DNA from: a virus
DNA length: 54,252 bases
Virus record (IMG/VR): IMGVR_UViG_3300021373_002055
Location: 1-54,252 of that record
Reading direction: 5' to 3' (one strand)
A model generated the notes under the pieces. The model saw only the letters and a list, made by a program, of their open reading frames with translations, was not told the origin of the DNA and ran no database searches. Positions 19,359 through 51,813 of this stretch are shown in pieces; position 1 is the first letter of the stretch, and each line of letters begins with the position of its first letter. The translations under genes were made by a program, and so were the position numbers.

Positions 19359-19894
19359 AGTCGTTCTTTTGCTCGTTCTAAATCTTGTTGGTAATGTATA
19401 TCGGTTGCATCATCTTTTATACATCCTATTCTTTTTGAAACATTACTGTTTAGTAAATGATCATATTTAAAAATTCTAACAGATCCGCTCCGTTTAAATG
19501 ATGGTTCAATTGTAATCAAATCGTCATAGTTATTATCTATCATATAATCTACACAATAATCAAAAGTATGTTCTCTGTCTGGATGATCAGGTTGTAAACA
19601 AACTATTAAATCAAATTCTTTATCTATTGAATTAAGTAAATCAATATACACATCTGTTACCTCTGCGTCTTTAAGTAAATGTACTGGTCGCTCTACAAAT
19701 GTTACTTTATTATCTAATGCTATTTTTAATACTTCATCACTTTCTGATGAAACAACAATTGTAGGATTATATTTACTTTGTTTAGCATAATCAATTGAAT
19801 ACTCAACTAATGTTTTACCTTTAATTTTTTGTATATTTTTTTTAGGTAATCTAGTTGAATCTGTTTTTGCTGGTATTATTGTTAATATCTTCAT
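19355..19894 (-). CDS. neuA: NeuA-like CMP-nonulosonate cytidylyltransferase
   Basis: A 179-residue nucleotidyltransferase of the CMP-sialic acid synthetase group. IIPAKTDSTRLPKKNIQKIK matches the CTP-binding signature (A-R/K-x-x-S-x-R-x-P-x-K-N). KTLVEYSI, IVVSSESDEVLKIA and LIVCLQPDHP follow in the usual order. It is shorter than the usual 220-residue enzyme but keeps the core. It would activate the NeuB product with CMP for transfer. It overlaps neuB and the dehydrogenase gene by 4 bases each, so all three are one unit. Confidence 0.85.
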   Translation of the reverse strand: MKILTIIPAKTDSTRLPKKNIQKIKGKTLVEYSIDYAKQSKYNPTIVVSSESDEVLKIALDNKVTFVERPVHLLKDAEVTDVYIDLLNSIDKEFDLIVCLQPDHPDREHTFDYCVDYMIDNNYDDLITIEPSFKRSGSVRIFKYDHLLNSNVSKRIGCIKDDATDIHYQQDLERAKERL

Positions 19895-20838
19895 AATTTA
19901 TTTATAGCCCATTTATATGCTCTAGTTTGACCTTCAATCGTCATTCCGCCAGTATGTGGTGTAACAATTATATTTTCTCCTTGATTCATTGCTTGTATAA
20001 TAGGAGATGCTTGTAAGTCGTCAAATTCATTTTCAACTACATCTGCACCATAACCTGATATAACTTTATTTTCCAATGCTTCTACAATGTCTTGTTCGTT
20101 AACTATTTCTCCTCTACTGGTATTAATAATATATGGAGATTTTTTACTATATCCAAGTAATTCTTTATTAATCATGTACTTCGTTTCATCAGTAACATGC
20201 ACGTGTAACGATATAACATCACATTGTTTAAACATATCTGTTAACTCGCAATAAGTATTAAGTAAAAACGCATCATCCATTTCATCTCGTTTATATGGAT
20301 CATATACTTTTACATTAGCTCCAAATGCTTTACAATAACTGTACATCATTTTTCCTAAACGACCGTAGCCAATGATACCTATAGTCAATGATTTAACTTC
20401 TCGTCCTATAAATGGTATATAGTCCCAATTATATTCAGAAACATGTTGTTTGCTTTGTGGTATACTTCGTAGCAATGACAACATTAGTCCAAATGCTAAT
20501 TCTGAAGTAGATGGTAACTGTTTAATTAATTCATAATCTTTAGTTAAAGACAAAATTTTAATGTTTTGTTTTTTACAATATTCAACGTCGATATGATTCA
20601 TACCAGTTGAACATGTATTGATTAAGTTAACATCGGTTCCTTGTAATAGCTCTTTATCAATTTTATATGTTTGTTGATTAGGATTACAAACTATAGTATC
20701 AATATTACGTTTTAATAGTAAATCTCTAACTTGTTCTTTTGTTGATTCTTCACGAAGATATAACTCGTCACTTTTATTTATAAGTAATTGTACGATTCCG
20801 TCTAAATGAAATACTGGGGTTATTACTGCTATTTTCAT
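19891..20838 (-). CDS. D-2-hydroxyacid dehydrogenase
   Basis: A 315-residue NAD-dependent dehydrogenase. The Rossmann motif is GIIGYGRLGKMMYSYCKAFG. NTSRGEIVNEQDIVEALE carries the catalytic Arg, GYGADVVENEFDD the catalytic Glu, and TPHTGGMT the catalytic His. Members reduce 2-keto acids. In this setting it may supply or trim a 2-keto acid sugar or a PEP/pyruvate-derived group near neuA and neuB, but the substrate cannot be read. Full length for the family. Confidence 0.85.
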   Translation of the reverse strand: MKIAVITPVFHLDGIVQLLINKSDELYLREESTKEQVRDLLLKRNIDTIVCNPNQQTYKIDKELLQGTDVNLINTCSTGMNHIDVEYCKKQNIKILSLTKDYELIKQLPSTSELAFGLMLSLLRSIPQSKQHVSEYNWDYIPFIGREVKSLTIGIIGYGRLGKMMYSYCKAFGANVKVYDPYKRDEMDDAFLLNTYCELTDMFKQCDVISLHVHVTDETKYMINKELLGYSKKSPYIINTSRGEIVNEQDIVEALENKVISGYGADVVENEFDDLQASPIIQAMNQGENIIVTPHTGGMTIEGQTRAYKWAINKL

Positions 20839-21791
20839 TTTTTATTTTGTATGTTTAAACAAATTTCCTGAATTACTTCGTTTGTGTTTTTTCTAATTTT
20901 ATAATCTAGCAATTTTTCTGCCTTTGTAATATTAGCAAATCTAACTAATATTTCTTGATAATTTCCAAATATTTTTTCAGCTGGGACAAATATTATGTCT
21001 GATTGATTTTTAAAATAATTATTAATATATTCTGCAGTGTATTTTACTGTAGTTTGTTCATTGGTTCCTAAATTTATAATTTCACCATTTGTAGTTTGTT
21101 GATTATTTAAAATACTTACAAATCCAGCTGCTATATCATTTGCGTGAGAAATTGATCTAGTTTGCAATCCATCACCATGTATTACAATGTCTTTACCTTG
21201 AGATGATAATTTAGCAAATAATGGAATATGTCCTCCACTCCATGTTGTCGAAGACCGTTTTGAAGCACACCCAAAGATACGTATTACGGTGCACTCTAAT
21301 CCTTGTTGCTGAAAGGTATTTAGTATGTGTTGTTCACTATACCATTTTGATAAAGCATATGAATATCGTACGTTAGTGGGGGCGCCCATTGTTATGTTAT
21401 CGTCTTCGCAAAATGTTTTTGAATTTCCATATATATCACTAGTAGATGCAAATATAAATTTAGTTTTATGTTGTAAACAACGTTGAACTAATAACTTAGT
21501 CATATGATAATTTGTATCTAATATGTCTGCAGATAATACACTACCATCCCATGCTTTTTTTAACGATGCAAAATGATATATAATATCATATTTTGTTTTA
21601 TAGTTTTCAATGTTTTCTACTTTGTCATGTATAAATTTAAAATTTTTGTTTTTTATAGCATCTGACAAGTTATCTAGCCTTCCATATGATAAGTCGTCAA
21701 TACCATCAACCATATGTCCTGCTTCAAGCAATAAATCTGTTGTATGACTTCCTATCAGCCCGGCAGCTCCTGTTACTAATATTTTTTTCAT
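20835..21791 (-). CDS. NAD-dependent nucleotide-sugar epimerase/dehydratase
   Basis: A 318-residue extended SDR. GAAGLIGSHTTDLLL binds NAD, FASTSDIYG holds the catalytic Ser/Thr, and YSYALSKW gives Y-x3-K. RIFGCASKRSS and SRSISHANDIAAGF follow at the substrate end. Best described as a UDP-GlcNAc/UDP-Gal-type epimerase or dehydratase. It overlaps both neighbours. A distinct, related SDR lies one gene away. Confidence 0.85.
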   Translation of the reverse strand: MKKILVTGAAGLIGSHTTDLLLEAGHMVDGIDDLSYGRLDNLSDAIKNKNFKFIHDKVENIENYKTKYDIIYHFASLKKAWDGSVLSADILDTNYHMTKLLVQRCLQHKTKFIFASTSDIYGNSKTFCEDDNITMGAPTNVRYSYALSKWYSEQHILNTFQQQGLECTVIRIFGCASKRSSTTWSGGHIPLFAKLSSQGKDIVIHGDGLQTRSISHANDIAAGFVSILNNQQTTNGEIINLGTNEQTTVKYTAEYINNYFKNQSDIIFVPAEKIFGNYQEILVRFANITKAEKLLDYKIRKNTNEVIQEICLNIQNKK

Positions 21792-22750
21792 ATGTTAACA
21801 CTTTTTAATGGTCCATTATTTACATTGTGATTAAAAAATTCTAAAATAAGAGTATTTGCATAATGTTGCTCTATTACATCAGAATATTTATGAACATTTT
21901 CATAATGCCATCCCCATCTGTCTTTCCATGCTTTAAAGTTAGAATATTCACCAAAGTGATAATCGTTTCCTTGTATCGCTCCCTGTGCTGAATTTTTATT
22001 TATGTTGTATTTTTCTTTTAATGATTGATTGTTTAAACAATATAAATCTGGTAATATTAAACATGGTTTATTTTTATGATTGAATTGCATAGCAATATCA
22101 GGTAACCATAAGTGAAAATGATATTGATTTGTTGCAATTATATGTTTATTCCAATTTGAAACATTTATTCCAACGGCTGCCCACATCGGAAACTCTACAA
22201 TAAATGGAGTTCTCCATACTTCTTGTTTTAGTAATTCTGTTTGCCGCTTTGTACATAACCAACGTTTAGAATTATTTCGAATTGACAAATGACACATTCC
22301 TATCATTCCTAGCGGAGACTCTCCTCGATCGAATTGCTGTAAACTATTTGATGTGTAGTTACCATGATCTAAAACATTGAATCCAACTATACCAAAGTCA
22401 TTGAGTTTATCACTTTGTATATATTTGTCTAACTTCGAAAAAAAGTTTTTTGATATAGGGTATATATCATGTTGAAAACAAACTACCCATTTACAGTTAG
22501 GACGATTTTCATTAACAAAGTCTATAAGTGTTTGAGTAGCCATTTGTACACCTCTATCTTTGTTCTTTAGAAAAACAACATCATGTTGTTTGCAAATAGC
22601 TTCACCTTTATTTAATTCATCAACAGAAGAATTGTCATCAACATTGATAAATTCAAAACCTTCGGTATTAATGTTTTTCAATACCTCATTTTCTAACATA
22701 TCATAATTGTTTCTTGAAGATACATATATGATAATACTATCACGCTTCAT
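21788..22750 (-). CDS. Glycosyltransferase-like protein (320 aa)
   Basis: A 320-residue GT-A-type protein: SIIIYVSSRNNYDMLENEVL, FEFINVDDNSSVDEL for the nucleotide site, KWVVCFQHDIYPISKNF with HD in the metal-site position, and a later MWAAVGINVSNWNKHI. The C-terminal third (WKDRWGWHYENVHKYSDVIE) is Trp-rich and may bind sugar. Divergent, so the family number is uncertain. Between the two SDR genes. Confidence 0.72.
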   Translation of the reverse strand: MKRDSIIIYVSSRNNYDMLENEVLKNINTEGFEFINVDDNSSVDELNKGEAICKQHDVVFLKNKDRGVQMATQTLIDFVNENRPNCKWVVCFQHDIYPISKNFFSKLDKYIQSDKLNDFGIVGFNVLDHGNYTSNSLQQFDRGESPLGMIGMCHLSIRNNSKRWLCTKRQTELLKQEVWRTPFIVEFPMWAAVGINVSNWNKHIIATNQYHFHLWLPDIAMQFNHKNKPCLILPDLYCLNNQSLKEKYNINKNSAQGAIQGNDYHFGEYSNFKAWKDRWGWHYENVHKYSDVIEQHYANTLILEFFNHNVNNGPLKSVNI

Positions 22751-23614
22751 TTAATACATACCTTTAAAAGATTCTACATAGTTAGTAATATTTTGTTTAG
22801 GTTGATAGCCAAAATTTTGTGTAGCTGATATATCTGCTAATGTAATTCTAGCTTCACCTGGTCGTGCTGGAATATATGTAGTGTCATCGCTAAACATAGC
22901 AGCAATTTCATTTATAGAATAATTTGTTCCGGTACCTAGGTTATAAACTTCTCCAGTATGAGTATGTTTACTCAAACATATCAATCCGTCACAAATATCA
23001 TATACATGAGTAAAGTCTCTTCGTTGTTCTCCATCACCTGTTATAGTTAATGATTTGCCATTTGAATACTGTCTTTCAAAGATACCTATAATAGTTGCAT
23101 ATGTTCCTTCGGTTGGATGTCGATCTCCATATACATTAAAAAATCTAGCACTCACCGTTGATATATTATATACTTCAGAATACATTTTCAACGTTTCTTC
23201 ACCAGTCCATTTTGCAAATGCATATGGATTTAATTTTGGTCCACCATATGCGGAACTACTAGCAGCATATATAATTTTTGCATTACATCTCCTTGCTAAT
23301 TCACAAACATTAACAGTACCCATTATATTGGACTGAAAATAACGTATTGGATCTTTAAATGATGGTTGAATTCTTGCAAGAGCTGCTAAATGAAAAATTA
23401 AATCAAAATTTAAATCTTCATATTTAACATTATCTAAGTTGTTAATATCATCAATAATGTATTTAACATTTTTATGTTTGTTGTTTCTACTGCTAGATTG
23501 TGAAGACAAATTATCAATAACAGTTATTTCATAATCTGTTGTTTGTAATAATCGTTTTACTAAGTTATATCCAATAAAACCTAAGCCTCCGGTAACTAAT
23601 ACTCGTTTTTTCAT
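22751..23614 (-). CDS. UDP-glucose/GlcNAc 4-epimerase-like SDR
   Basis: A 287-residue extended SDR: GGLGFIGYNLVKRLL for NAD, FHLAALARIQPSFKDP, AASSSAYGG for the catalytic Ser, NPYAFAKWTGEE for Y-x3-K, SARFFNVYGDRHPTEGTYAT, and RRDFTHVYDICDGL. These are the hallmarks of GalE/WbpP-type epimerases. It probably supplies a galacto- or rhamno-configured nucleotide sugar for the neighbouring transferases. It follows a GT2 gene directly with no overlap. Confidence 0.87.
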   Translation of the reverse strand: MKKRVLVTGGLGFIGYNLVKRLLQTTDYEITVIDNLSSQSSSRNNKHKNVKYIIDDINNLDNVKYEDLNFDLIFHLAALARIQPSFKDPIRYFQSNIMGTVNVCELARRCNAKIIYAASSSAYGGPKLNPYAFAKWTGEETLKMYSEVYNISTVSARFFNVYGDRHPTEGTYATIIGIFERQYSNGKSLTITGDGEQRRDFTHVYDICDGLICLSKHTHTGEVYNLGTGTNYSINEIAAMFSDDTTYIPARPGEARITLADISATQNFGYQPKQNITNYVESFKGMY

Positions 23615-24268
23615 TTATAATCCTTCGTATAATTTATTTTGTCGTTCTTGTCGATCAATTGTTTTGTCGTGACGTAAACACCACTGCTCTTCAATTGGAA
23701 GATAACTCATTGTCCGGTAGCCTTCTAATACTTCATGAACTCGATTTACCCATGTTATCTTTTTATTGTTCTTGTAAATGCGCCATTGAAAGTCCGGAAA
23801 GTTTACCCAACCTTGATCATTAACACCCCAATTCCATTTTGCTATATGTTCTTTAGTAAGCCCTTCAACTGTGTTTATTCTAGGAACTTTTAACACATCA
23901 ACGTCATTATGTTTTAATACTTCAGGTATCATATCCATCATATATGTTGTAGGCATCTCATCTGCGTCTATCTGAAATATGTAATCTCCTGAGCAATTAT
24001 CTGTTAGGTTGTTTTTAAAGTTGGCAAAGTGATTATCTAATGAAAAATCACATATAAATTTAATTCGACCTTCTTTATATAAATTACCACAATATAGATT
24101 AACTTCCATTTCGGGTGTTAGTGGAGTATGGGATGCAGATTTTTTATATGCCCCATCTTGTTGTACAACTATCTCATCTTGCTCACGTTTGTTTTCTAAA
24201 AGAAAATTCAGTAAACGTTGTATCTCTATAAATTCATTGCAGACTGTTATAGCGTAACTTATTTTCAT
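23615..24268 (-). CDS. Family 2 glycosyltransferase
   Basis: A 217-residue GT2: ISYAITVCNEFIEIQRLLN, DEIVVQQDGAYK, NNLTDNCSGDYIFQIDADEM with the DAD metal site, and later WRIYKNNKKITWVNRVHEVL. The short C-terminus matches simple transferases of the LPS/KDO-type group. Overlaps the 60-aa gene by 4 bases. Confidence 0.85.
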   Translation of the reverse strand: MKISYAITVCNEFIEIQRLLNFLLENKREQDEIVVQQDGAYKKSASHTPLTPEMEVNLYCGNLYKEGRIKFICDFSLDNHFANFKNNLTDNCSGDYIFQIDADEMPTTYMMDMIPEVLKHNDVDVLKVPRINTVEGLTKEHIAKWNWGVNDQGWVNFPDFQWRIYKNNKKITWVNRVHEVLEGYRTMSYLPIEEQWCLRHDKTIDRQERQNKLYEGL

Positions 24269-32497: not shown

Positions 32498-33754
32498 TTA
32501 AAATTTAAAAAATTTCTCGAATTGTTTAGCATCGGTAGTTGATATACTATCTCCACCAAATTTCTTGTATGTCTTTTTATATGTTGCATATACATTCATT
32601 GCATTGTCTGGATCTGCGAACATTTCGTGTAATGATAGTATAACATTAAATAATTCCTTTGGAATAGCCGTTTCTAATAATTCAACATGATTATGTGTCA
32701 ATTTATTAATGTCTTTAACAATTTCACAATACAGATGCGTATTATGAACTACCATTCGGGGCATTCCTTCTTGTGAATATCTGTCTAACCCAGTTGCTGT
32801 CTGTCCTCCTAAGTATTCATATGTAAAGTCTTTACATGCTGGGCAGTCAATACTACAAGGAACATGTTTAGTTTTGTCAATGCTTATTTCACCGTCTTTG
32901 CCTTGTTTAACATGAGTCTTTCTGCGATACTCAGCATTCTTTGGAAAATACAATTCAGTGAATGTCTGTGTCTTATAGTTGCCAGAATGAAGATATGTTC
33001 CAAATACTGGATATTGACCTGGTGAAGATGAGTCAGACATCAATTGTATGCGATTGTCTGTCAGTTTATTCAATAACTCTTGCAAGGTTGCTAATATAAA
33101 GAAATCTGATATTTTGCTTATTCCTAGCAAATGCACATATTCTACATGTTTCTTTTCAAATTCTCGTTCTTGAAGCATTAGTGCAATTACATACATAAAG
33201 TCTACTAATTTTTTAGGACCTCCTATACACCAACCTTTAAAGTCAAAGTCTTTGAACTTGTGATACCATTCTTTATATTCCTCACTAAATGTACCTTGAA
33301 TAACATTTAAGAATTTTGTCTTACCACTTTGATTTTTTTCAAACCATTTAAAATTGTCAAATGATATATCCATTGAGTCTTGAAATCTATTTTCAAATGT
33401 AACTCTAGGTGGTATATCTAAGTTTGCGGCTACATCACTATTAGCTTCTAACCAATGAAATATTTTTTCACGAATTGTGCTATCCCATTTAAGAGCACCA
33501 GTAGCAATCTGGAATCCTCCTGAGTCGCCAAATACAAATGTTTCGTCATCTAATCCCAATTGGTCACGAAAATCCATTTTCTTGTAATGATGTCCTGCTG
33601 TTACCAAAAAATATGGATGTCTCCACTTTTCGGGGTATTCTTTTGCAAAGAATCGCATTGTAGTGCCATCTTCAAATTTAGTATCCTTTTTAAATGCAGA
33701 TACCATGCTACCCGCAGATAATGACGGTATATATAAAAACTCTTTTCTATCCAT
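32498..33754 (-). CDS. dpdA: DpdA-like DNA 7-deazaguanine transglycosylase (TGT family)
   Basis: A 418-residue member of the tRNA-guanine transglycosylase superfamily. FGDSGGFQIATG (D77, base-binding Asp) is the family signature. NLDIPPRV, NVIQGTFSEEYKEWY, GWCIGGPKK and MSDSSSPG (D241, candidate nucleophile) follow. C300-x3-C304-x2-C307 and a later His give the zinc site. It lies between gp45 and gp43 genes, not with tRNA genes, and FolE, QueD and QueE are encoded 6-8 kb upstream. So DpdA, which swaps guanine in DNA for a 7-deazaguanine, is the best call; a tRNA-acting TGT is the alternative. Confidence 0.82.
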   Translation of the reverse strand: MDRKEFLYIPSLSAGSMVSAFKKDTKFEDGTTMRFFAKEYPEKWRHPYFLVTAGHHYKKMDFRDQLGLDDETFVFGDSGGFQIATGALKWDSTIREKIFHWLEANSDVAANLDIPPRVTFENRFQDSMDISFDNFKWFEKNQSGKTKFLNVIQGTFSEEYKEWYHKFKDFDFKGWCIGGPKKLVDFMYVIALMLQEREFEKKHVEYVHLLGISKISDFFILATLQELLNKLTDNRIQLMSDSSSPGQYPVFGTYLHSGNYKTQTFTELYFPKNAEYRRKTHVKQGKDGEISIDKTKHVPCSIDCPACKDFTYEYLGGQTATGLDRYSQEGMPRMVVHNTHLYCEIVKDINKLTHNHVELLETAIPKELFNVILSLHEMFADPDNAMNVYATYKKTYKKFGGDSISTTDAKQFEKFFKF

Positions 33755-34922
33755 TCTGTTCCTGTTCTAATAAATGTTTACAATATGCTTCTTCATGCCA
33801 CACATTGATTTCTTTGTCATAGTCATTTGCTATAATATAACCTTCCATCTGTCGACCTAAGTCTGATACAATTGGAAATCTCATAGTTTGAAAGTTATTG
33901 CCTCGTTCAATAACATGATCAAATGTCTTTAAGCAGTCATTGACATCAAATGGTTGATATAGTTTGTCTTGTGGTATAAATTCCGGGAATGATCTAAAAT
34001 TAGGATATACAACATCACAACCAAACAGAGTAGCTTCTAGCACTGTCCAAGAGACATAGTCTTGTAAAGCTGAATTAAATTGTATACGAGCCGTGGATAA
34101 TTGTTCGTAATATTCTTGTTTAGTTAAGTTATGCATACAAACAAATCTAGGTTGACGTTTTTCTAGCTCATGCATTGCTCCCAATACCCCCGGCAACGAA
34201 GATTTAAATTCTTTACCAGATGTGGTAACGTGCCATGTCCAATTAGGATTATCTGCTAAAAATGCTTCTGCTACTTCAAGCATAAAAAACGGATTCTTTT
34301 CTTTGTCTAATCTACTAGAATATACAACAGTATTTTGTCGTTGATCTAATGGATTGTACTTTGGATTCTTATCTAATGCCATTTCTGCATGTAATGGAAG
34401 TGAAACAACGTGTATTGGTGCTTCAAATCCTGCTTGTCTGAGTTGTTCTTTATGAATAGTAGAACCTACAAATATTCCTGTCATTCGTTTGTCTAATCCT
34501 AATTCAAAACCACGCATCCATGAACGCATTGGATACACAAAGTCATATTCGTCTACACTTTGTGCGTGAAGCATTGAATAAAATTTCAAATCAATACCAT
34601 ACAAGTCAATCGCATATAATATAGACTCAATACCCGGATGCCAATAGTCTTGAAGAAATATGATATCGCCATCGTTTACTTCTCCACGATTAAGCATATC
34701 TAAAAAGTTAGCACATTGACTCATTGCAAATTTGCCTCTGCCTACGGCGTCGAGTACTACTCCAATCTTTATTTGCTGATCGGGGTCAAACTCTCCTTCA
34801 ACGTCTATAAACTCTAATTGATCTGCATATGGCTTGAAAGTAGCCGGCATCCATTCTTTTGATAGCTGATATGTATATCTAGCTTTTAGCGGCTCTAGGC
34901 CAAAATAAAATAATTTTCTCAT
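33747..34922 (-). CDS. GT-B glycosyltransferase in the DNA-modification/replication block
   Basis: A 391-residue transferase. MRKLFYFGLEPLKARYTYQL starts the N-lobe, and NTVVYSSRLDKEKNPFFMLE and SWTVLEATLFGCDVVYPNF form the donor lobe with the conserved Glu. I use the ATG at 34922, which overlaps the preceding stop as ATGA; the ORF could also start at 34958. It lies 12 kb of minus-strand DNA away from the glycan island and directly before dpdA, overlapping it by 8 bases. A DNA-base glycosyltransferase like those of T4 is possible but unproven. Confidence 0.72.
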   Translation of the reverse strand: MRKLFYFGLEPLKARYTYQLSKEWMPATFKPYADQLEFIDVEGEFDPDQQIKIGVVLDAVGRGKFAMSQCANFLDMLNRGEVNDGDIIFLQDYWHPGIESILYAIDLYGIDLKFYSMLHAQSVDEYDFVYPMRSWMRGFELGLDKRMTGIFVGSTIHKEQLRQAGFEAPIHVVSLPLHAEMALDKNPKYNPLDQRQNTVVYSSRLDKEKNPFFMLEVAEAFLADNPNWTWHVTTSGKEFKSSLPGVLGAMHELEKRQPRFVCMHNLTKQEYYEQLSTARIQFNSALQDYVSWTVLEATLFGCDVVYPNFRSFPEFIPQDKLYQPFDVNDCLKTFDHVIERGNNFQTMRFPIVSDLGRQMEGYIIANDYDKEINVWHEEAYCKHLLEQEQNG

Positions 34923-35263
34923 CTTTCTATTATTGCTCCGTTTTCCCAATCTTCCCATACTTCTACTTTATATAGATAACCAGGATTATTATTTAATATC
35001 CATTCTCCAATGTCTTCACAACTCATTCTACCAAATTCTAATATATTACCACCAAAATTAGTTCTTAATTGTTTTTTTAATCTTCGCTGCATTAAGATAA
35101 ACTCTTCATCTCTATCTGTATGACTTACTTTTGCATAACAACGAAATCCAAATTGATGTCTATGTCTATCTGATAAAAATGCTACTTCTTGTAACACTTC
35201 GTTAGCTTCTGGCCAACTATGAAATCCTTCTGCGGTAAATGATACTACTACACTATATTTCAT
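34919..35263 (-). CDS. Hypothetical protein, possibly T-fold/QueD-like (114 aa)
   Basis: A 114-residue protein with VVSFTAEGFHSWPEANEV, FLSDRHRHQFGFRCYAKV, SCEDIGEWIL and VEVWEDWENGAIIE. The order of a His-rich strand pair, a helix and a final V-x-V-x-E strand recalls the 6-pyruvoyltetrahydropterin synthase T-fold. The match is weak and the QueD Cys-x3-His-Gly-His core is not present. It sits in the same coupled string as the glycosyltransferase and dpdA. Treat as unknown, with T-fold as a testable idea. Confidence 0.5.
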   Translation of the reverse strand: MKYSVVVSFTAEGFHSWPEANEVLQEVAFLSDRHRHQFGFRCYAKVSHTDRDEEFILMQRRLKKQLRTNFGGNILEFGRMSCEDIGEWILNNNPGYLYKVEVWEDWENGAIIER

Positions 35264-35712
35264 ACTTGTTCATCAAATTTATAGTTATCTGGCTTAATTT
35301 CCATCATGTTGCATTTAGTAACCTGATGAACTCGATACCAACCAGCATCTACACTGAATGTGTCTGTGTCTTTTAATTTTTGTAATGCTTCGTCTTGAAT
35401 ACGATATATAACATGGCAACGATTAAATACATCTGGTGGTAAATTTCCTAATACAGATTCATTAGCTTCTATAGTAATTACACTATTTGTAGAGTCTAAT
35501 ATTGCCCTAATAGGATCATATAAATTTTGTTTATTTTGCCATTTATCAGAATTCATAGCAGCCTCCATATATTCTATAGTAAAATAATAATGAGGATAAT
35601 CACATAAATTTTCTACATTAATACCATCTCCTAAGTTGCGAACAAAGTATGTCATCATGTCTGAGTAACGACCTTCTACTTCTCTACCACGCCATTGATC
35701 TTTTCCGTACAT
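35260..35712 (-). CDS. Hypothetical protein (150 aa)
   Basis: A 150-residue soluble protein with a helical N-half (SDMMTYFVRNLGDGINVENL) and a strand-rich C-half (NSVITIEANES, WYRVHQVTKCNMMEIK). No motif is recognised. It is immediately downstream of the gp43 gene and coupled (ATGA) to the T-fold-like gene, so it belongs to the replication and DNA-modification string. Confidence 0.6.
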   Translation of the reverse strand: MYGKDQWRGREVEGRYSDMMTYFVRNLGDGINVENLCDYPHYYFTIEYMEAAMNSDKWQNKQNLYDPIRAILDSTNSVITIEANESVLGNLPPDVFNRCHVIYRIQDEALQKLKDTDTFSVDAGWYRVHQVTKCNMMEIKPDNYKFDEQV

Positions 35713-35745
35713 ATAACTTTTTTATTTATTATAGTAAATTTATTC

Positions 35746-38256
35746 TTATTTTCCAAAAGAAAAGAATTTATTCACTGTATTATTTTCTGGTAATTTACCC
35801 CAATTCATTGCAGCATAGAAATCATCTATTTTACCCTGCAGGTCTCGTTCGAACATCTTATCTCGATCAATATACATATTAACAAATTCAACTAATTCAG
35901 GTGGATCTTCGTATCCTCGAAGTGCCATAGTATCAAATCCATATGGATTATTTTTAAGATATCCCCATTTAACCTTTTCACCATTTTTAATTTCAGTAAC
36001 ATCAGTTTTTAATTGTGTTAACATATCATTAAAATTTATTGCAGATTTAACATGGGCAGGAGTTCCTGACATATATCCAGTAAATGGCTTACGTGCTTTT
36101 GTATATTTAGAAACCTCTTTGACACCAGAATTTTTCATTACGTCTAATACATTGGATTTTTGTATAGATTGTTTAAAGTCAAATATAACATCGGAAGTAT
36201 CTGTTTTGCTTTTTTCTTTCAACACACACCACAAAGTTTCTTTCATTATCTTTTTGAAATCTGTTGGGAAACTACTCCTAACTACATCTAAACCTTTGAT
36301 ATCCATTTTATCCGTAGGTTTGCCTTCTTTGAATATGACCCATTGAGCATATCTCTTTTTTGCTATCCAAAGACCAGATTTAGCAACATATTCCTGTTTA
36401 ATCTGAAATTGATGCTCTGTTGTATTGTGAAAATGCACAGCATACTGATCATACATGGTATTAACATACTTTTGTATTTCGGATGCTACTTCGTTTGTCT
36501 TTTCAATCATGAATTGTTCATCAGTTTCATCATATCCAGGATAACGCTTTTCTATGAGTGGTAATGAACTAACAAATGTAGAATCTGTGTCTGTATAAAA
36601 ACTAAATTCTGCTTTATTACCATTTGCATTGATAAAATGATCTTTACCAGTTTCTTTAGCATAATATGCATTGATTGCTTTTGCAGAAAATTTAATTACA
36701 CTTTGACCTGTTGCTGTAATAGCACCTGCATTGTCTAAGTCATGGAATCGGAAAGTCTTAAGTCCCAATACTCCATAAAATGAATTCAACAACACTTTTT
36801 GTGTTAATTGCAATGCATCATAAAATTTATATTCTTCAGAGCCAACTTCATACTCATCTCGCTTGTTTTTATATTCAACACGCTCAATAAACCATTTTTT
36901 AAGAATAGCTGGAAGAAACCCAATCCTAGATGTATCATATACCGCTCCATTACTAGCAACTGTATATTTGTTATCTTGTAGCCATTGTTTAACGTCTGGT
37001 ATAGTTTGATTGTTAATCGTAACAGATACAGCATCAGATTGTAACAAGTATTCTTGATTCCAATTTTTAATAACTCCAATTTTAGTCTCTGGAGATATAT
37101 TCAAACTCATAATAATACTAGGATACAGAGAAGTTAAATCTAAATCGTATATCCATTTATATAGCCCTGGAATTGGAGGCATTACATATGCTCCTGCTAA
37201 TGCATCTTGCCGTTCTTCTTCAATAAATCGAAATTGTTTGTTAGGAGCAACATATCCGTTACGCTTCAAGTCTACAATAGCAGCACCATCAAGATATTTA
37301 GATGCGTAATATACATCTTCATATGGAACATGTCCTTTATGGCATATAGTTCTTGCAAGATTGATGAGTTGTAGTTTTTCGTCTAATTCATATACCAAAT
37401 CAACATCTGTCATATTATAATAAGCAAACTTGTGAATGTCTTGTTCAAACAAATCATCTAAATCGCCATCATATTCAACTTTACCCTTATTGAGTTCAGT
37501 TTTACCAACAGTGTCTAATCTGTAATTAGGAAGTTCTGTGTATGTGAAGTTTTTATATAATTTAATATAATCTAAACTAGATACACCAAATATCTTCCAT
37601 TTTTTACTTTTAGGATTTTGTGTAACAATTCCTGCAGGCGAAAATTTCTTGATAGACTGATTGCCTAATACTTTTTTACATCTGCCTAATAAATATGGAA
37701 TATCATAACCGTCAGTATTCCAACCAGTTATAACAGTAGGCTGTATTTCTGCAAATGCGTTTATGAATCTAGTAAGTAAGTCTTTTTCACTGCGAAATAT
37801 TTCCAAAGTATATCCGTCACCTTGTATAACACTATCTTTGATGCGTTTACGTTCATCTAATATGAGTACTCTGCGGTCATTACCACTTTTATCATAATAT
37901 GCTATGGATGTTATAGCCGTTCTTACATCCTCAATAGTACTATATCCATTCTCATCTTTTGCCGTTTCAATATCAAAGAAAAAGTCTCTATGTCCTTTAG
38001 AAACAGTGTCATCTTCATAGTATAAATCTATTAGAGTGCGAACTTCTTCATTTAAATCAGATTCATATGCATCTGGGTTATCTCGATGATTGCCGGGGAC
38101 TTTAGCCAATTGTACACCATCCAATGTTTTGTATTTACCAGTGTCGGAAGGCAAATATCCATATGGTTGAAATGGAAACTTTTGATGACCTAATTCATCA
38201 TCCCATACGTGCATTATGCCTCCGCGCTTGTCATAACCTATTGCTTGATATGCCAA
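35746..38256 (-). CDS. 43: Family B DNA polymerase, T4 gp43-like
   Basis: An 836-residue replicative polymerase. Exo I is FFFDIETA (D95, E97), Exo II TGWNTDGYDIPYL and Exo III YNMTDVDLVYELD. Motif A is DLTSLYPSII, motif B KVLLNSFYGVLG and motif C YTDTDSTF, all intact, so both proofreading and synthesis are expected. Somewhat shorter than T4 gp43 (898). The start codon is TTG at 38254-38256; a stop codon lies in frame five codons upstream, so no ATG is possible before it. An AAAGGAAAG ribosome site precedes it. The start overlaps the previous gene by 19 bases. Confidence 0.95.
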   Translation of the reverse strand: MAYQAIGYDKRGGIMHVWDDELGHQKFPFQPYGYLPSDTGKYKTLDGVQLAKVPGNHRDNPDAYESDLNEEVRTLIDLYYEDDTVSKGHRDFFFDIETAKDENGYSTIEDVRTAITSIAYYDKSGNDRRVLILDERKRIKDSVIQGDGYTLEIFRSEKDLLTRFINAFAEIQPTVITGWNTDGYDIPYLLGRCKKVLGNQSIKKFSPAGIVTQNPKSKKWKIFGVSSLDYIKLYKNFTYTELPNYRLDTVGKTELNKGKVEYDGDLDDLFEQDIHKFAYYNMTDVDLVYELDEKLQLINLARTICHKGHVPYEDVYYASKYLDGAAIVDLKRNGYVAPNKQFRFIEEERQDALAGAYVMPPIPGLYKWIYDLDLTSLYPSIIMSLNISPETKIGVIKNWNQEYLLQSDAVSVTINNQTIPDVKQWLQDNKYTVASNGAVYDTSRIGFLPAILKKWFIERVEYKNKRDEYEVGSEEYKFYDALQLTQKVLLNSFYGVLGLKTFRFHDLDNAGAITATGQSVIKFSAKAINAYYAKETGKDHFINANGNKAEFSFYTDTDSTFVSSLPLIEKRYPGYDETDEQFMIEKTNEVASEIQKYVNTMYDQYAVHFHNTTEHQFQIKQEYVAKSGLWIAKKRYAQWVIFKEGKPTDKMDIKGLDVVRSSFPTDFKKIMKETLWCVLKEKSKTDTSDVIFDFKQSIQKSNVLDVMKNSGVKEVSKYTKARKPFTGYMSGTPAHVKSAINFNDMLTQLKTDVTEIKNGEKVKWGYLKNNPYGFDTMALRGYEDPPELVEFVNMYIDRDKMFERDLQGKIDDFYAAMNWGKLPENNTVNKFFSFGK

Positions 38257-38486
38257 AGTCTTTCCTTTTTAGTTTTGCATATGTTCCATATGCCGTAAAT
38301 ATTAATTGATATAATAACTAAACTCAACACCATATGGCTGATATTAGTTATTAACAAATCATACGTAACCCAACCAATATCTCCAAGTATCCAAGAAAAC
38401 ATTGCTAGTTTAGTATAGTGCCGGGCATTAAAAATATACCCCGCTAAAACTAATATGGTGCTAATCCATCCTAGAGTCTCAATCAT
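38238..38486 (-). CDS. Small membrane protein, three TM helices (YgjV-like)
   Basis: An 82-residue protein with three hydrophobic helices (about 3-20, 28-46 and 50-68), IETLGWISTILVLAGYIFNA and MVLSLVIISINIYGIW, and a basic cytoplasmic tail. The pattern resembles YgjV/half-PnuC-type small membrane proteins. It overlaps the gp43 start and the GroES stop, so it is co-translated with both. Role in replication-membrane contact or transport is unknown. Confidence 0.6.
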   Translation of the reverse strand: MIETLGWISTILVLAGYIFNARHYTKLAMFSWILGDIGWVTYDLLITNISHMVLSLVIISINIYGIWNICKTKKERLWHIKQ

Positions 38487-38772
38487 TGACTACTGCAATT
38501 TCCGATTCTCTTACTAATACATATTGAGTGTCGTCTAATACAATCTCTTTGTTCTCGCCTAAATTAGACTTATAAACATATACCGAGTTTCCAACTTTGA
38601 CTGTCATTGGAATACGAGCTCCTGTCTGAGTAAATAACCCATCTCCAGTTGCTACTACTTCTCCTAACACAAATGCCATGTCTCGATCTACGAGTATAAT
38701 TCCAGATTTTGTCTTTTCTGCAGTTTTTTCTACTTTTAGCAATACTTGATCGCCAATTGGTTTCCAATTCAT
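38479..38772 (-). CDS. groES: GroES-like co-chaperonin (T4 gp31 counterpart)
   Basis: A 97-residue GroES-fold protein: MNWKPIGDQVLLKVEKTAEK, TKSGIILVDRD (mobile loop), GEVVATGDG, VKVGNSVYVYKSNLGENKEI and YVLVRESEI. These are the strands of the GroES barrel in order. The loop ends in the IIL hydrophobic triplet that touches GroEL. I prefer the ATG at 38772, which has an AAAAGGAA ribosome site, to that at 38790. Phage GroES proteins such as T4 gp31 let host GroEL fold large phage proteins, notably the capsid protein. Confidence 0.88.
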   Translation of the reverse strand: MNWKPIGDQVLLKVEKTAEKTKSGIILVDRDMAFVLGEVVATGDGLFTQTGARIPMTVKVGNSVYVYKSNLGENKEIVLDDTQYVLVRESEIAVVND

Positions 38773-38860
38773 AACTTGTTCCTTTTCCATTGTATGTTTT
38801 TATATTTATAAATGTATTTTATTTTTAAATTTTCGTATGTTGTTGTGCTATACCAATACA

Positions 38861-39097
38861 TCATAACCTTTTTATATTGTCAATAGTTACACTGTTTCCT
38901 ACTATTCTTGATACTTCTTGTCCTTGTGCATCGATTCGCATAAAACAAGGAATATTTCTAACATTGTAATGGTTAGCCGTTGCCATATCTTGATCAATAT
39001 TAATTGTTCGAAATGGAACGGTTAACTGATTCAATTTAGGCTTTAATAATTTACATGGTCCGCACCATGGTGCTGTAAAATATAGTAATTGACTCAT
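38861..39097 (-). CDS. Thioredoxin (short, CGPC)
   Basis: A 78-residue thioredoxin: LLYFTAPWCGPCKLLKPKLN with the active-site CGPC, FRTINIDQDMATANHYNVRN, and IPCFMRIDAQGQEV with the cis-Pro loop. It lacks the first strand and helix of full thioredoxins (about 105 aa), as in many phage versions. The likely client is the ribonucleotide reductase. It overlaps the QueE stop by one base (TAATG). Confidence 0.9.
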   Translation of the reverse strand: MSQLLYFTAPWCGPCKLLKPKLNQLTVPFRTINIDQDMATANHYNVRNIPCFMRIDAQGQEVSRIVGNSVTIDNIKRL

Positions 39098-39867
39098 TAT
39101 ACTCCTCTTTCTGTATCATATGCAATGATGTGGTCTCTACCTGTCATATTATAACCATGTTCAGCAACCATTTCAAATACGAGTGGATACATTTTAATTA
39201 ATTCTTCTCTTGTGTCTCCAGCTGGCATAACATATGTTTTATGTTTTGGTATATTATGCAATACACGGAAGTCTTCAATTTCTTTTAAAGTTTCTTCGGT
39301 ACCATCCCATACTGGTTTATAATGATAGTCATGATGATATTTCAATGTCTTGCTAATAGCTTCATGATTCAATCTCAATCTGTTATGTGTCTTGATCATT
39401 TTTTCATCAACTATTTTACCGGCAGGAGTCTTAGTTCCGACAACCGGCACACTATTGCTAAACTTAGGTGAAAGTGACACTAAATCAAATGGCATTGGTG
39501 TTTCTATAAAATGACTACCTTCTGTTTCTACAGTTGTCATAATACCACGTTTAGATGCAAACAATGTTAATTCATTCATTAAAGCAGGATGCATTGTGGG
39601 AGAACCTCCCGTTATCATCATCTCTTTAACTTGTGGATTAGCATCATATATGTCTACAATGTCTTGAAAGCAAAATGTGCCTTTTTCTGGATGTATACTA
39701 GTATACCATGAATCACACCAACCACCTTCGCCAAAATAACATCGATGAGTACATCCGGTTGTTCTTATTGCTATAGTGGGCATTCCGAATCTACTGCCTT
39801 CACTTTGCACACATCTGTATACTTCTAATACAGGTAATCTTTTTTTATAATCTTCTATTCGTTTCAT
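39097..39867 (-). CDS. queE: QueE-like 7-carboxy-7-deazaguanine synthase
   Basis: A 256-residue radical SAM enzyme. VQSEGSRFGMPTIAIRTTGC carries the QueE Q-x-E-G...G-x-P signature. C39, C43 and C51 (GCTHRC...WCDS) bind the 4Fe-4S cluster, and MMITGGSPTMHP is the GGE-like SAM motif. It turns 6-carboxytetrahydropterin into 7-carboxy-7-deazaguanine. I place the start at the ATG at 39867, one base after the upstream stop; a longer frame would begin at 39915. Same string as queD and folE. Confidence 0.9.
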   Translation of the reverse strand: MKRIEDYKKRLPVLEVYRCVQSEGSRFGMPTIAIRTTGCTHRCYFGEGGWCDSWYTSIHPEKGTFCFQDIVDIYDANPQVKEMMITGGSPTMHPALMNELTLFASKRGIMTTVETEGSHFIETPMPFDLVSLSPKFSNSVPVVGTKTPAGKIVDEKMIKTHNRLRLNHEAISKTLKYHHDYHYKPVWDGTEETLKEIEDFRVLHNIPKHKTYVMPAGDTREELIKMYPLVFEMVAEHGYNMTGRDHIIAYDTERGV

Positions 39868-39868
39868 A

Positions 39869-40207
39869 CTAGAATGGGAGGTCATCGGCAGGGCCGACAT
39901 TACTATTGGTAACATTTATTAATTCATTTAATTTATTTTCTAATCGAGTAACTTTATCATGTAACATATCAAACTGATCTTTACGTACTAATATCTGTTC
40001 AGGTCGTTTATATATACTGTCTAAAAAGTCTATAGGCCATGTTGCAACTGATTTATACTTATCATTTTGCAATTCTTCTGGTAACATCTTGGTTCCTGAC
40101 TTGATGCCTCGACTTGCTGCTAACTCAGCAACTCGTATGCCGTCATCAGAGTTAGCAGTAGACCGACCTAAATAGTCATATAAAGATACATATACAGTTT
40201 TACTCAT
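39869..40207 (-). CDS. Hypothetical protein between queE and queD (112 aa)
   Basis: A 112-residue protein from the ATG at 40207, which overlaps the queD stop by 8 bases: MSKTVYVSLYDYLGRSTANS, then an acidic/helical middle, a C-terminal coiled coil (FDMLHDKVTRLENKLNELIN) and a disordered end. It is not QueC: the ATP-PPase SGGxDS motif is absent. Being locked between two pathway genes, it may aid modification, but I cannot support a function. Confidence 0.6.
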   Translation of the reverse strand: MSKTVYVSLYDYLGRSTANSDDGIRVAELAASRGIKSGTKMLPEELQNDKYKSVATWPIDFLDSIYKRPEQILVRKDQFDMLHDKVTRLENKLNELINVTNSNVGPADDLPF

Positions 40208-40661
40208 AACTTGCTGAATTTTTAGCGTGTTCGTATACTTCAACTTTACTAGCTCTTACACGACCGTCTGTTTCTTTAAGTAAGAATCCATTGATAACCT
40301 TATATAAAAACTCTGCAAACTTTTCGCACCCAGTATCATCAATAACTCTGAGTTGAATAATACCTTGTGCATCCATCATTCTGAATGAATCTAGCTCTGG
40401 GTCGTCGTTTGCTATGATTACTGTGTGATCTAATAACCAATCAAAATAATCTTTCGGAGCATATCCATTTATTTCGTGTTTAGAACGTTTCATACCACCA
40501 AAGTCAAATACCCAGTTGCGATGATCCAATTCTCCTTCAAACCATACTCGAAATGATAGTGCATATCCATGTAAATAACTACAATGCGTTTCAGTTGCTT
40601 TCCATTGTCGGAAACAAGTTGAGTATCCGTCAAATAATTTAGTTGATGTAAATTTAGCCAT
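40200..40661 (-). CDS. queD: QueD-like 6-carboxytetrahydropterin synthase
   Basis: A 153-residue T-fold enzyme. YSTCFRQWKATETHCSYLHG gives the Cys27-x3-His31-Gly core, VFDFGGMKRS the conserved Asp-Phe-Gly strand, LLDHTVII the catalytic Asp-His and VEVYEHAKNSASY the final Glu strand. The second zinc His of E. coli QueD (H33) is Tyr here and the first (H16) looks like Cys, so the metal site differs. It converts dihydroneopterin triphosphate to 6-carboxytetrahydropterin. Overlaps folE by 8 bases. Confidence 0.88.
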   Translation of the reverse strand: MAKFTSTKLFDGYSTCFRQWKATETHCSYLHGYALSFRVWFEGELDHRNWVFDFGGMKRSKHEINGYAPKDYFDWLLDHTVIIANDDPELDSFRMMDAQGIIQLRVIDDTGCEKFAEFLYKVINGFLLKETDGRVRASKVEVYEHAKNSASYE

Positions 40662-41319
40662 TATATCCTTTTACAAATTCATAATATTCATTTCTAGTTG
40701 CTGGGTCGTCTTTGAATGCACCTGTCAGTTTGCTTGTCTTCATTGATGCACCTCCGTGCTTAACACCTCTACATGATACACAATTATGGGTAGCATCAAT
40801 CATAACAGCAACACCTTTATTGTCATTGATAATAGTATCAATTGAATTGTGTATAGCAACAGTTAGTTGTTCTTGAATAGCACCACGTCTTGCAAAATGC
40901 TCTACTAATCTATTCAATTTACTCAAACCAATTACTTTGCTATCGTTACCTGGAATATATGCTACATGCACTTTACCCATAATGGTTTGATGATGATGTG
41001 AACACATTGATGTTAATGGAATACCTCCTTCGAATACCATACCGTCATATCCATCACTAGGAAATGCAGTAATATTAGGAGCACCATTATATCTACCTGC
41101 CCATAAATCGTTTACATATGCTTTTGCAACACGATGTGGTGTATTGTCTGAGTTTGGATCATTTCTCCAATCACATTTAAGTGCATCTAAAAACAAACCA
41201 AATGCATTTGCTGCAGCATTAATCATTGTAGCTTTCTGATTTTCAGTGAGAGGCTCATTCTGAGCCACACCATTAGCAAAGCCTTCTTTAACTAGTTCTA
41301 TACTTTTCTTTATTGTCAT
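40654..41319 (-). CDS. folE: GTP cyclohydrolase I
   Basis: A 221-residue FolE: NTPHRVAKAYVNDL, then TSMCSHHHQTIMGKVHVAYI (zinc Cys and His, active-site His), GLSKLNRLVEHFARRGAIQE and NCVSCRGVKHGGASM (second zinc Cys). It opens GTP to 7,8-dihydroneopterin triphosphate. With QueD and QueE downstream it feeds the 7-deazaguanine path and not folate alone. It has an AAAGGAA ribosome site. Confidence 0.93.
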   Translation of the reverse strand: MTIKKSIELVKEGFANGVAQNEPLTENQKATMINAAANAFGLFLDALKCDWRNDPNSDNTPHRVAKAYVNDLWAGRYNGAPNITAFPSDGYDGMVFEGGIPLTSMCSHHHQTIMGKVHVAYIPGNDSKVIGLSKLNRLVEHFARRGAIQEQLTVAIHNSIDTIINDNKGVAVMIDATHNCVSCRGVKHGGASMKTSKLTGAFKDDPATRNEYYEFVKGYNG

Positions 41320-41351: not shown

Positions 41352-41567
41352 TTATTGGGCTTTCAAAGTTTTTTCACCTTTTTTATTTTTTGGATAATAT
41401 GGACAATGTCGACAACCATTACCGCAACAATAACCTCGCCTGGTATGATATGATTCTGTCATGACACGATATCCATTTTCATAGTAAAAATCTGTAGAAA
41501 GGAGCTTGTTTCCAAACTCCCTTACATATGCTTGTTGTATCCAATCTTTATCCGCCGGAATCATCAT
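41352..41567 (-). CDS. DUF5522-like Cys-rich small protein
   Basis: A 71-residue protein with YHTRRGYCCGNGCRHCPYYP, matching the H-x-x-R-G-Y-C-C-G-N-G-C-R-H-C-P-Y pattern of DUF5522, a family I associate with Bacteroidota. The cysteines probably bind a metal. It overlaps the reductase stop as ATGATG/TGA, so the two are co-translated. Function unknown; a reductase accessory role is suggested by position. Confidence 0.75.
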   Translation of the reverse strand: MMIPADKDWIQQAYVREFGNKLLSTDFYYENGYRVMTESYHTRRGYCCGNGCRHCPYYPKNKKGEKTLKAQ

Positions 41568-49555: not shown

Positions 49556-50494
49556 CTAGAATTTTTTTGGCTGTATAAATATTTTAAAAACTATAGATAC
49601 ATTATTTCCAATGTCGAATTGTTTTGCAAATTCTCCAGTTTCTCCGGTCGTTATTGCTGCAATAATTTGTTCTTTAAAATTAGTTTTTTCTAATCCAGCT
49701 TCAACTTGTGTAGTTAATATGTCTGAAATTTGTGATTCGGTACCTAACTGTGAATAAATTTTTTCTCCTAATGATATTCTGCGCAATAGTTGTGATGAAA
49801 TAATATATACCGGACTAATTGAGTTAAATTTATAGCCTCCACTATTTCTAAAACCAAATATATAAAATTTATTTGGATCGTTAGAAAAAAATGTAGTTTG
49901 TAAATTTAAATTAATATTACCAGTAGTTGCAGTTTTAACTTCAAATTTATTGTTACCATCCTCCCCGTCTACACCTTTTGCTTGGGATGTTACATGTTGA
50001 ATATTTGTGTTAAATTTAGAATTCAAGTAAGTAAATATAACTGCTTCTGCTGCTATGCCTGGAGATGTGTAATCAGATATTGGCAAATTAGTTTTATTAT
50101 TATTTCCTAGTGTATAGTGCCCATCATATCCGTCAGTATATTGGTCAATGTCTGTAATTGAAAATACTGTTTCGAAACTAGGTTTATAATGTTTTTTAGT
50201 ATATTCTGCTAATTGTTGTAACTGACCAATTTTGTTTTTAGTTTTTAACAATTGCAATAAATCCGCAAAATCATCAGTTGCTGAATTTGGATCTGATGAT
50301 AACATACCAGATGTCTCTTCTTCATCTTGTTCTTCTAATCCCATTGCTCTGCGCACAATTGCATCTTGTTGAGGTTCGGGTAAATCAGTTTGTTCGCGTA
50401 AAACGTTGCGCAACTCAATGTAATCTTCGGGGCAGTCTGGATAACCTTTTTCTAATCGGTATGTCCATTCTGTAATTATAGAATCTATATTCAT
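49556..50494 (-). CDS. PD-(D/E)XK nuclease-like protein with TEW-type N-domain
   Basis: A 312-residue protein. Residues 1-35 (MNIDSIITEWTYRLEKGYPD) match a short N-terminal module that I recall from several proteins of marine T4-like phages. The C-part has GIAAEAVIFTYLNS, then GVDGEDGNNKFEVKTATTG with D176 and E185-x-K187, followed by a beta-strand region. This fits the D...ExK core of restriction-type nucleases. Host DNA cutting or packaging-related cutting is possible. The gene overlaps the polymerase-like gene by 4 bases. Confidence 0.6.
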   Translation of the reverse strand: MNIDSIITEWTYRLEKGYPDCPEDYIELRNVLREQTDLPEPQQDAIVRRAMGLEEQDEEETSGMLSSDPNSATDDFADLLQLLKTKNKIGQLQQLAEYTKKHYKPSFETVFSITDIDQYTDGYDGHYTLGNNNKTNLPISDYTSPGIAAEAVIFTYLNSKFNTNIQHVTSQAKGVDGEDGNNKFEVKTATTGNINLNLQTTFFSNDPNKFYIFGFRNSGGYKFNSISPVYIISSQLLRRISLGEKIYSQLGTESQISDILTTQVEAGLEKTNFKEQIIAAITTGETGEFAKQFDIGNNVSIVFKIFIQPKKF

Positions 50495-51813
50495 AACGTG
50501 ATAGTTCTCATTTTATCATAAATATCGCCAACTTTACATTTCACCGGAAATTTTCCCTGTTCCATGATAGTTTTTATTTGTGGCAATATGCCTTTGGCTT
50601 CTGATAAAGGAACATCGAATAGAACGGAGTCATATGTATACAATATTATACATGCTTCATAGTCTTGCAGATATTTTTGTAGTTCTGCTAATTTTTTAAC
50701 AGACACCTCTGTTTCAGTGGCCTGCAAATAATAGTTAAACAACTTATATGATGTCATGTTGGTGACTTGATCTTTGCAAATGCTACGACCTATTATAGGA
50801 GTTTTTATGCAACCACTGCGCTTCCATGTAGCCCAAAGCTTAAACACAAAATCATTTACTTGCTGAAAAAATGGAATCGTTAAAAACTCTTTGTCTATGC
50901 CTCCATATAAAAGTCTAAACGTAATAGCTTTACTTTCTTCTCTTTGTTGTTGTGTTAATTCTTCAACACCAAAATAAAAGCGACCCAAATAGTCATGTAT
51001 ACTAGTTTCAGGCAAATCATATCCAATAAGTTTAGCAATCAGTCTAACATGATAACTGTCAAAATCCATTTCAACCAAAGCACCTTCAGTGTGTCTGCTT
51101 ACAAATGCCGCTCTAGTTCCATCTTCTTTGTTCATTGCCGCATAATTGAATCCACCATATGCATTGCTTGGTCGACCCGTTGTGGTATGATAGTTGTATC
51201 TGGAATACACTCGATTGCCGTTAACTAGTTCTGGCATTCGAAAAGTGCTGTTAACTGCTAATCCATTTTGTTCTATGTCAGCAAACGTTCTGGGATACAA
51301 CTCATTGAAACGTTTATATGAATCGGTGAGTTTTGCATTGACAATCATGGGCCATGCATAATGTCTAATCTTCTGACACATAGCCAAATGTTGCTGCATT
51401 GGTATTACTGCATTTACTTGTGGTAATGATTTGAGTCGACGCCAATAAAAATCATGAGCTGGTGTAGGATAATGAGACTCATCATATGCTTCATTATATG
51501 TATACCACCACAAAGTCTTTACATCCCATACGGCATCGTTTCCACCGGTTTGAAGCCACCGCTTCTTGTCATGGATAAATATATTATCTAGTTGCAAGAA
51601 CTGTTTTAGATATTGTGAAAAGCCCCTTATTTGTTCTGTATGAGCCATTGGTATCAACCATTCACTTTTATCTTCACAATAAATGTAAACTGCGTGAATA
51701 TCTTGTTGTGATTCGTGGGTAGTTGGATTTGCATAGATAGGAACTAGTAATGTCTTGTTTTCTGCTATTATACTTAGGCAGGTCGTAACATCAGATTCAT
51801 AGTCCACTATCAT
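50491..51813 (-). CDS. Compact family A DNA polymerase-like protein
   Basis: A 440-residue Pol I-like protein. TGRPSN (212-217) and the adjacent NYAAMNKEDGTRAAFVSR match the template-binding region. Motif A is ALVEMDFDSYHVRLIA (D250, D252), motif B R291-x3-K295-x3-F299-x3-Y303-G304, and motif C LYTYDSVLFD, where the usual H-D-E is Y-D-S (Y394, D395, S396). The first 150 residues may be a degenerate exonuclease domain. This is a second polymerase besides gp43. Activity is uncertain because the motif C Glu is missing. Confidence 0.78.
   Translation of the reverse strand: MIVDYESDVTTCLSIIAENKTLLVPIYANPTTHESQQDIHAVYIYCEDKSEWLIPMAHTEQIRGFSQYLKQFLQLDNIFIHDKKRWLQTGGNDAVWDVKTLWWYTYNEAYDESHYPTPAHDFYWRRLKSLPQVNAVIPMQQHLAMCQKIRHYAWPMIVNAKLTDSYKRFNELYPRTFADIEQNGLAVNSTFRMPELVNGNRVYSRYNYHTTTGRPSNAYGGFNYAAMNKEDGTRAAFVSRHTEGALVEMDFDSYHVRLIAKLIGYDLPETSIHDYLGRFYFGVEELTQQQREESKAITFRLLYGGIDKEFLTIPFFQQVNDFVFKLWATWKRSGCIKTPIIGRSICKDQVTNMTSYKLFNYYLQATETEVSVKKLAELQKYLQDYEACIILYTYDSVLFDVPLSEAKGILPQIKTIMEQGKFPVKCKVGDIYDKMRTITL

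Follow-up and report, generated by a model that had tools for sequence, protein, structure and literature searches.

The virus record IMGVR_UViG_3300021373_002055 (54,252 bases, analysed whole and called the window below) carries, between nucleotides 32498 and 41319 of its minus strand, a set of genes that on balance we interpret as a 7-deazaguanine DNA hypermodification module without QueC. In this module a small QueD-fold protein, o114, would take the place of QueC, a DpdA-like transglycosylase would insert the resulting base into DNA, and a GT4-type glycosyltransferase (GT) would add a sugar. The original prediction for this region, made from the sequence, had recognized folE, queD, queE and the DpdA-like gene and had proposed that, QueC being absent, 7-carboxy-7-deazaguanine (CDG) itself might be the base inserted. 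Its call of a 7-deazaguanine modification with a TGT-superfamily DpdA and no QueC holds. Plain CDG as the final base is no longer the best reading, since o114 never occurs with QueC and GT adjoins nearly all DpdA genes of the window's type in loci without QueC; the argument for plain CDG is weakened because o114 and GT had been overlooked.

Gene content and order

All four of the genes named originally are present on the minus strand, with matches in Pfam, PHROG or NCBIfam (Table 1). The two additional genes, specifying o114 and GT, are situated between those for the DNA polymerase and DpdA. The open reading frames (ORFs) overlap by 4 bases at o150/o114, by 4 bases at o114/GT and by 8 bases at GT/DpdA, the start and stop codons overlapping; o150, o114, GT and DpdA therefore probably form one translationally coupled unit. 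The order ribonucleotide reductase (RNR)-FolE-QueD-QueE-PolB-o150-o114-GT-DpdA-clamp is conserved in those IMG/VR loci that are long enough to show it, and gene order is likewise conserved around the 80 relatives of the DpdA-like gene in IMG/VR.

Table 1. Genes of the proposed modification module and the adjoining o150 in the window
Gene	Product or proposed role	Position	Strand	Evidence
dpdA-like	DNA guanine transglycosylase, TGT superfamily (predicted)	32498..33754	-	Pfam TGT; invariant TGT-type residues; PDB profile matches
GT	GT4-type (GT-B) glycosyltransferase, 391 residues; proposed sugar transfer to deazaguanine	33747..34922	-	AlphaFold (AF2) fold; homologues with the same DpdA
o114	QueD/PTPS-fold paralogue; candidate substitute for QueC, with CDG as its proposed substrate	34919..35263	-	AF2 model; PDB fold match; invariant residues
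o150	Neighbour of the module genes, without family match	35260..35712	-	Overlaps o114 by 4 bases
queE	CDG synthase, radical SAM	39097..39867	-	PHROG QueE-like 2.6e-47; NCBIfam QueE 4.5e-14
queD	6-carboxy-tetrahydropterin synthase	40200..40661	-	Pfam PTPS 9.4e-15; PHROG QueD-like 1.2e-35
folE	GTP cyclohydrolase I (GTP to dihydroneopterin triphosphate)	40654..41319	-	Pfam GTP_cyclohydroI 156.8 bits, 5.2e-46; PHROG GTP cyclohydrolase 1.7e-61

Conversion of GTP to CDG by FolE, QueD and QueE, as first proposed, is well supported by homology and would constitute the first step of the pathway. QueE scored 52.6 bits against the NCBIfam QueE model, under its curated cut-off of 206; the three cysteines of its radical-SAM site are invariant (alignment A10), and it shows 64% identity to QueE of Flavobacterium phage immuto and 58% to that of Cellulophaga phage phiST. 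Its translation more likely begins at Met17 of the longest ORF. The zinc motif of the phage QueD proteins (alignment A4) is HGY, against HGH in E. coli QueD; o114 retains HxH.

Absence of QueC

No QueC (PF06508) was found in the 54,252-base record, nor in 21 IMG/VR relatives with DpdA proteins 83–97% identical (three of these records being 100, 140 and 160 kb in length), nor in relatives reaching 173 kb in length. The lack of QueC that had been remarked upon in the region in view consistently characterises the virus group as a whole and extends beyond this window. The same search detected QueC in five control phages (phiSM, immuto, PhiXhv-12, KoPa-5 and Vibrio 2.275.O) and is therefore sensitive enough. 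In all it covered 12 complete phages, 6 further phages and 27 large records carrying o114 or GT; no full QueC was found in the latter, where the sole match above the cut-off was partial and lay in another SGGxDS ATP-pyrophosphatase. Partial matches in G028, D479 and phage X1 were rejected as they appear to be other ATP-pyrophosphatases; in D479, which carries o114, the partial match was the only one and lay in an unrelated-looking protein of this kind.

Protein o114 as a proposed replacement for QueC

The distribution of o114 is the converse of that of QueC. It is present in the complete cultured phages PA5oct, phiST, BUCT-ZZ01, Phosso, ACP17 and X1, none of which has QueC above the cut-off, and is missing from all five of the QueC-carrying controls named above. 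No QueC match was obtained in the further cultured o114 phages MA9V-3, Roos, Bakedbeans, RHph_I1_18 and Ahp1_CNU-2021. Among 256 non-redundant locus clusters o114 was found in 155 and QueC in 79, and the two together in none, the complete lack of overlap that a functional replacement would predict. Two Cellulophaga phages illustrate the pattern, phiSM having QueC, and phiST an o114 homologue and no QueC; a phage of this genus is reported to contain dCDG, as the original prediction mentioned. The neighbours most often shared by 39 diverse o114 loci are QueE, FolE, GT, QueD and DpdA, and a scan of IMG/VR for o114 returned at least 580 stretches.

The AF2 model of o114 is confident (pLDDT 95.2), and its best PDB match using Foldseek is the T-fold protein QueD of E. 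coli (4ntk; E-value=5.7e-7, prob=1.00, TM=0.70). A comparison of sequence profiles with QueD was suggestive (71% probability), and it was the comparison of folds that decided the assignment. In 42 sequences H15, H34 and H36 are invariant, as are R51, E54, SCE81-83 and ED104-105. The three histidines (H..HxH) are likely to form a zinc triad like that of the E. coli QueD/PTPS structures (4ntk, 3qn9), and the SCE and ED motifs are positioned like the pterin-binding residues of QueD. Unlike these enzymes, o114 possesses an invariant Leu30, four residues before HxH, at the position of the catalytic Cys of QueD (Glu in PTPS-III). For this reason o114 was not classed as QueD; we regard it as an enzyme with the fold of QueD which probably does not catalyse the QueD reaction. 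Phages with the complete module retain a separate QueD alongside it.

In Chryseobacterium phage MA9V-3 (L352, 7452-8333) and Vibrio phage Bakedbeans (L354, 7221-8372) o114 constitutes the C-terminal domain of longer proteins. The bacterial occurrences that were inspected mostly appear to be prophages or virus contigs. In four actinobacterial contigs (L366, L369, L370 and L383), some of them prophage-like, o114 is accompanied by FolE and QueD/QueE; one of the four, from Streptomyces NEAU-Y11, may be a biosynthetic cluster. The neighbouring o150 occurs in most window-type loci of sufficient length and in 4 of the 39 diverse o114 loci.

The glycosyltransferase

The AF2 model of GT (pLDDT 93) has its best PDB matches in BshA, MshA and glycogen synthase (E-value ~1e-12). 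Its donor-site residues R204 and K209 are invariant, and it has the motif D288-x7-E296, which in the homologues of PA5oct, ACP17 and Phosso is E-x7-E. The window protein scores 19.5 bits in Pfam, below the cut-off of 26.4, and its homologues in X1 and BUCT-ZZ01 score 45.5 and 26.5, respectively. With a GT profile, 20 of 50,697 phage records were recovered at E<=1e-3, comprising BUCT-ZZ01, X1, ACP17, the PA5oct group, Phosso and the PhiXhv/Ep032 group, and at least 580 stretches were recovered from IMG/VR.

The same DpdA family is present in every GT-carrying group tested as whole genomes (Ep032 left out). The two genes adjoin in the unrelated phages PA5oct, X1 and ACP17, are separated by o114 alone in BUCT-ZZ01, and lie far apart in Phosso. 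Of 143 IMG/VR locus clusters with the window's type of DpdA, 116 also carry GT, and many of the others are short contigs; of 32 clusters with the short DpdA of the phiST type, none does. A role as a generic surface glycosyltransferase was not preferred: the GT profile gave no match to the window's other glycosyltransferases, and GT occurs in only 2 of the 79 QueC loci.

A nucleotidyltransferase (CTP_transf)/mannose-P-isomerase gene lies between o114 and GT in one locus (L186). In Xanthomonas phage PhiXhv-12 (L089, 3818-9740) Gat-QueC (annotated as glucosamine-fructose aminotransferase), a PIG-L deacetylase, a GT homologue and an oxidoreductase adjoin, a cluster which is possibly a glycosylated archaeosine-type module. 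Because of the nucleotidyltransferase/mannose-P-isomerase and PIG-L deacetylase neighbours, GT is likely to carry out real sugar transfer.

The DpdA-like transglycosylase

The DpdA-like protein scores 29.4 bits against Pfam TGT, above the cut-off of 26.3, and 24.0 bits against the NCBIfam TGT superfamily model, under its cut-off of 47.6. An alignment of 22 members of the family revealed D77, S78, G79, G80, Q82, D113, P115, G154, G179, H208, L210, G211 and D241 to be invariant; of these, the DSGGxQ, D..P, QG and HxLG motifs and the late Asp match the base-binding and nucleophile residues of TGTs. When the family profile was compared with the PDB, TGTs made up 47 of the 48 matches listed (best E-value=0.001). 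With regard to the TGT zinc site of three Cys and one His, a cysteine cluster with a following His is found in DpdA of the window clade and is missing from the homologues of ACP17, X1 and BUCT-ZZ01.

As had been stated, the gene lies within the replisome block, where it directly adjoins that of the sliding clamp and shares the block with a B-family polymerase. In more distant window-type loci DpdA is 83-88% conserved, as against 64-80% for the polymerase. The short form of DpdA found in immuto, phiST and phiSM gave no match to the profile of the window's type, and by sequence membership the window protein falls outside the short family of phiST and immuto, which is probably DpdA2.

Proposed pathway and alternatives

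Following the synthesis of CDG, o114 would divert it from the preQ0 route, as its mutual exclusion with QueC suggests. The leading guess for the reaction is decarboxylation of CDG to 7-deazaguanine: for a relative of QueD that contains zinc, no reaction on a single substrate would be simpler, and the guess takes account of the probable zinc site of o114 and of its pocket residues, which are of the pterin/guanine type. DpdA, to judge from its family, would then exchange guanine in replicated DNA for the product of o114, and the GT4 enzyme, given its fold and its gene associations, may move a sugar from a nucleotide sugar to the deazaguanine, either as the free base or in DNA. Such DNA would be protected against restriction by the host and perhaps also against nucleases able to recognise smaller modifications.

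Several points weigh against this scheme. The observations are of gene associations, and the chemistry is inferred from them. Decarboxylated CDG would leave no obvious O or N at C7 as a nucleophile for O- or N-glycosylation, and the guessed reactions of o114 and GT therefore fit poorly together; the sugar may be attached at a different atom or at C7 itself, or the reaction of o114 may differ. PhiXhv-12 combines GT with Gat-QueC and has no o114, so GT does not require o114 and can accompany a QueC-type pathway. Some contigs with GT and DpdA are also without o114, and the sole long record among them (L227) has o114 elsewhere. Lastly, the P-values, including that for the mutual exclusion of o114 and QueC (Fisher 1e-46), overstate the evidence, as the loci were gathered by scanning for the very families compared and contigs related to one another do not count independently.

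With low probability, o114 is a CDG decarboxylase whose product is inserted by DpdA as 7-deazaguanine (dDG), GT having some other function, for instance in glycosylating the virion or the host surface. The QueD-like fold of o114 with its H..HxH residues and its exclusion of QueC would suit this, and phiST and other phages have o114 with the short DpdA and no GT, a gene set from which it follows that o114 without GT makes a complete system. The tie of GT to one type of DpdA and its rarity among phage records argue against this reading.

It is improbable that DpdA inserts CDG, with dCDG as the final modification and o114 and GT serving otherwise. FolE, QueD, QueE and DpdA are indeed present without QueC, and the same possibility was raised for Mycobacterium phage Bipper (Hutinet 2019, PMC6884629), but o114 substitutes for QueC one for one across phages, and GT, apparently coupled translationally to DpdA, is found together with it again in phages that are not related. 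A processed, probably glycosylated 7-deazaguanine is a more probable product than plain dCDG, and the absence of QueC alone should not be taken to indicate the latter.

We consider it very unlikely that a host QueC converts the phage-made CDG to preQ0 for insertion by DpdA. QueC is usual in cellular genomes (12 of 14 controls, a Bacteroides among them), and DpdA of phage 9g, acting on its own, inserts some of the preQ0 that E. coli has in its pool (PMC6884629), yet the restriction of o114 to loci without a viral QueC would be left unexplained. Hardly credible is a role of the que genes in host tRNA queuosine or in pterin/folate supply instead of DNA: FolE and QueD do belong also to pterin pathways, and the window's DpdA is a distant TGT relative whose DNA substrate is predicted, but QueE would be superfluous for folate, and the TGT relative is part of the replisome block and better conserved than the polymerase.

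Relation to known systems

Enterobacteria phage 9g and E. coli phage CAjan carry preQ0/archaeosine DNA modifications (Hutinet 2019, PMC6884629). They share with the proposed module FolE, QueD, QueE, a TGT-family DpdA and 7-deazaguanine in phage DNA as a defence against restriction; they possess QueC or Gat-QueC, whereas the present module lacks QueC and includes a QueD-fold paralogue along with a GT4 enzyme. The closest relative found among cultured phages is the phiST type, which has FolE-QueD-QueE, no QueC and an o114 homologue (36.5% identical), but differs in its short, distinct DpdA and in lacking GT. In immuto, a gene with a formyltransferase fold (L081, 24370-24897) adjoins DpdA and QueF, consistent with a formylated preQ1-type modification.

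An enzyme named DpdL is said to be a CDG decarboxylase that diverts CDG in QueC-less phages, and dDG and dCDG have reportedly been described with it; o114 may well belong to the DpdL family, which is not known to have a glycosyltransferase partner. The alpha- and beta-glucosyltransferases of coliphage T4 act on 5-hydroxymethylcytosine. Here too a sugar would be placed on a modified base in the DNA of a T4-like phage, but the base would be a deazaguanine, and the enzyme is of the GT4 family, its nearest solved folds being BshA and MshA. To our knowledge, the sugar-bearing bases of phage DNA are all pyrimidines.

The literature searched, outside which most subscription papers and preprints lay, does not describe any glycosyltransferase as a partner of DpdA and yielded nothing pertinent on DpdL or on glycosylated deazaguanine; as far as found, glycosylated 7-deazaguanine DNA would be new. 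There is about an even chance that such DNA occurs in many marine and freshwater phages, along with several cultured phages infecting Proteobacteria and cyanobacteria, and is made by a six-gene module of FolE, QueD, QueE, the QueC-replacing QueD-fold enzyme, the TGT-family DpdA and the GT4 glycosyltransferase. It would then be the purine counterpart of glucosylated hydroxymethylcytosine, and a new purine class of hypermodification, with a bearing on the host nucleases that these phages evade; o114 and GT would represent new chemistry that can be tested. The module is common, and as cultured carriers exist the question is directly testable.

Genomic setting and host

The record is a T4-like fragment with no end repeats. 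It represents a 54-kb part only; related viruses exceed 150 kb, so that the virus's own genome is incompletely covered. The T4-like replication block, on the minus strand, specifies a clamp loader, dUTPase, sliding clamp, B-family polymerase, DnaB-type helicase, exonuclease, UvsX and single-strand-binding protein. In addition to the full B-family polymerase, a 440-residue protein (50491-51813, minus strand) matches the end of a large phage DNA polymerase family (phrog_17). Between RNR and FolE lies a gene for a DUF5522 protein (PF17653, 4e-18; 41352-41567, minus strand) which is conserved in window-type viruses.

The host is probably a member of the Bacteroidota. This is indicated by a secreted repeat protein (11060-13435, minus strand) with a C-terminal type IX secretion sorting domain (NCBIfam TIGR04183, 2e-10), type IX secretion being a system known from the Bacteroidota. 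A sugar cluster (14690-24268, minus strand) contains a NeuB/PseI-like synthase, a truncated CMP-sugar cytidylyltransferase-like protein, a 2-hydroxyacid dehydrogenase, two NAD-epimerases and several glycosyltransferases, and looks like one for nonulosonate-type sugar synthesis.

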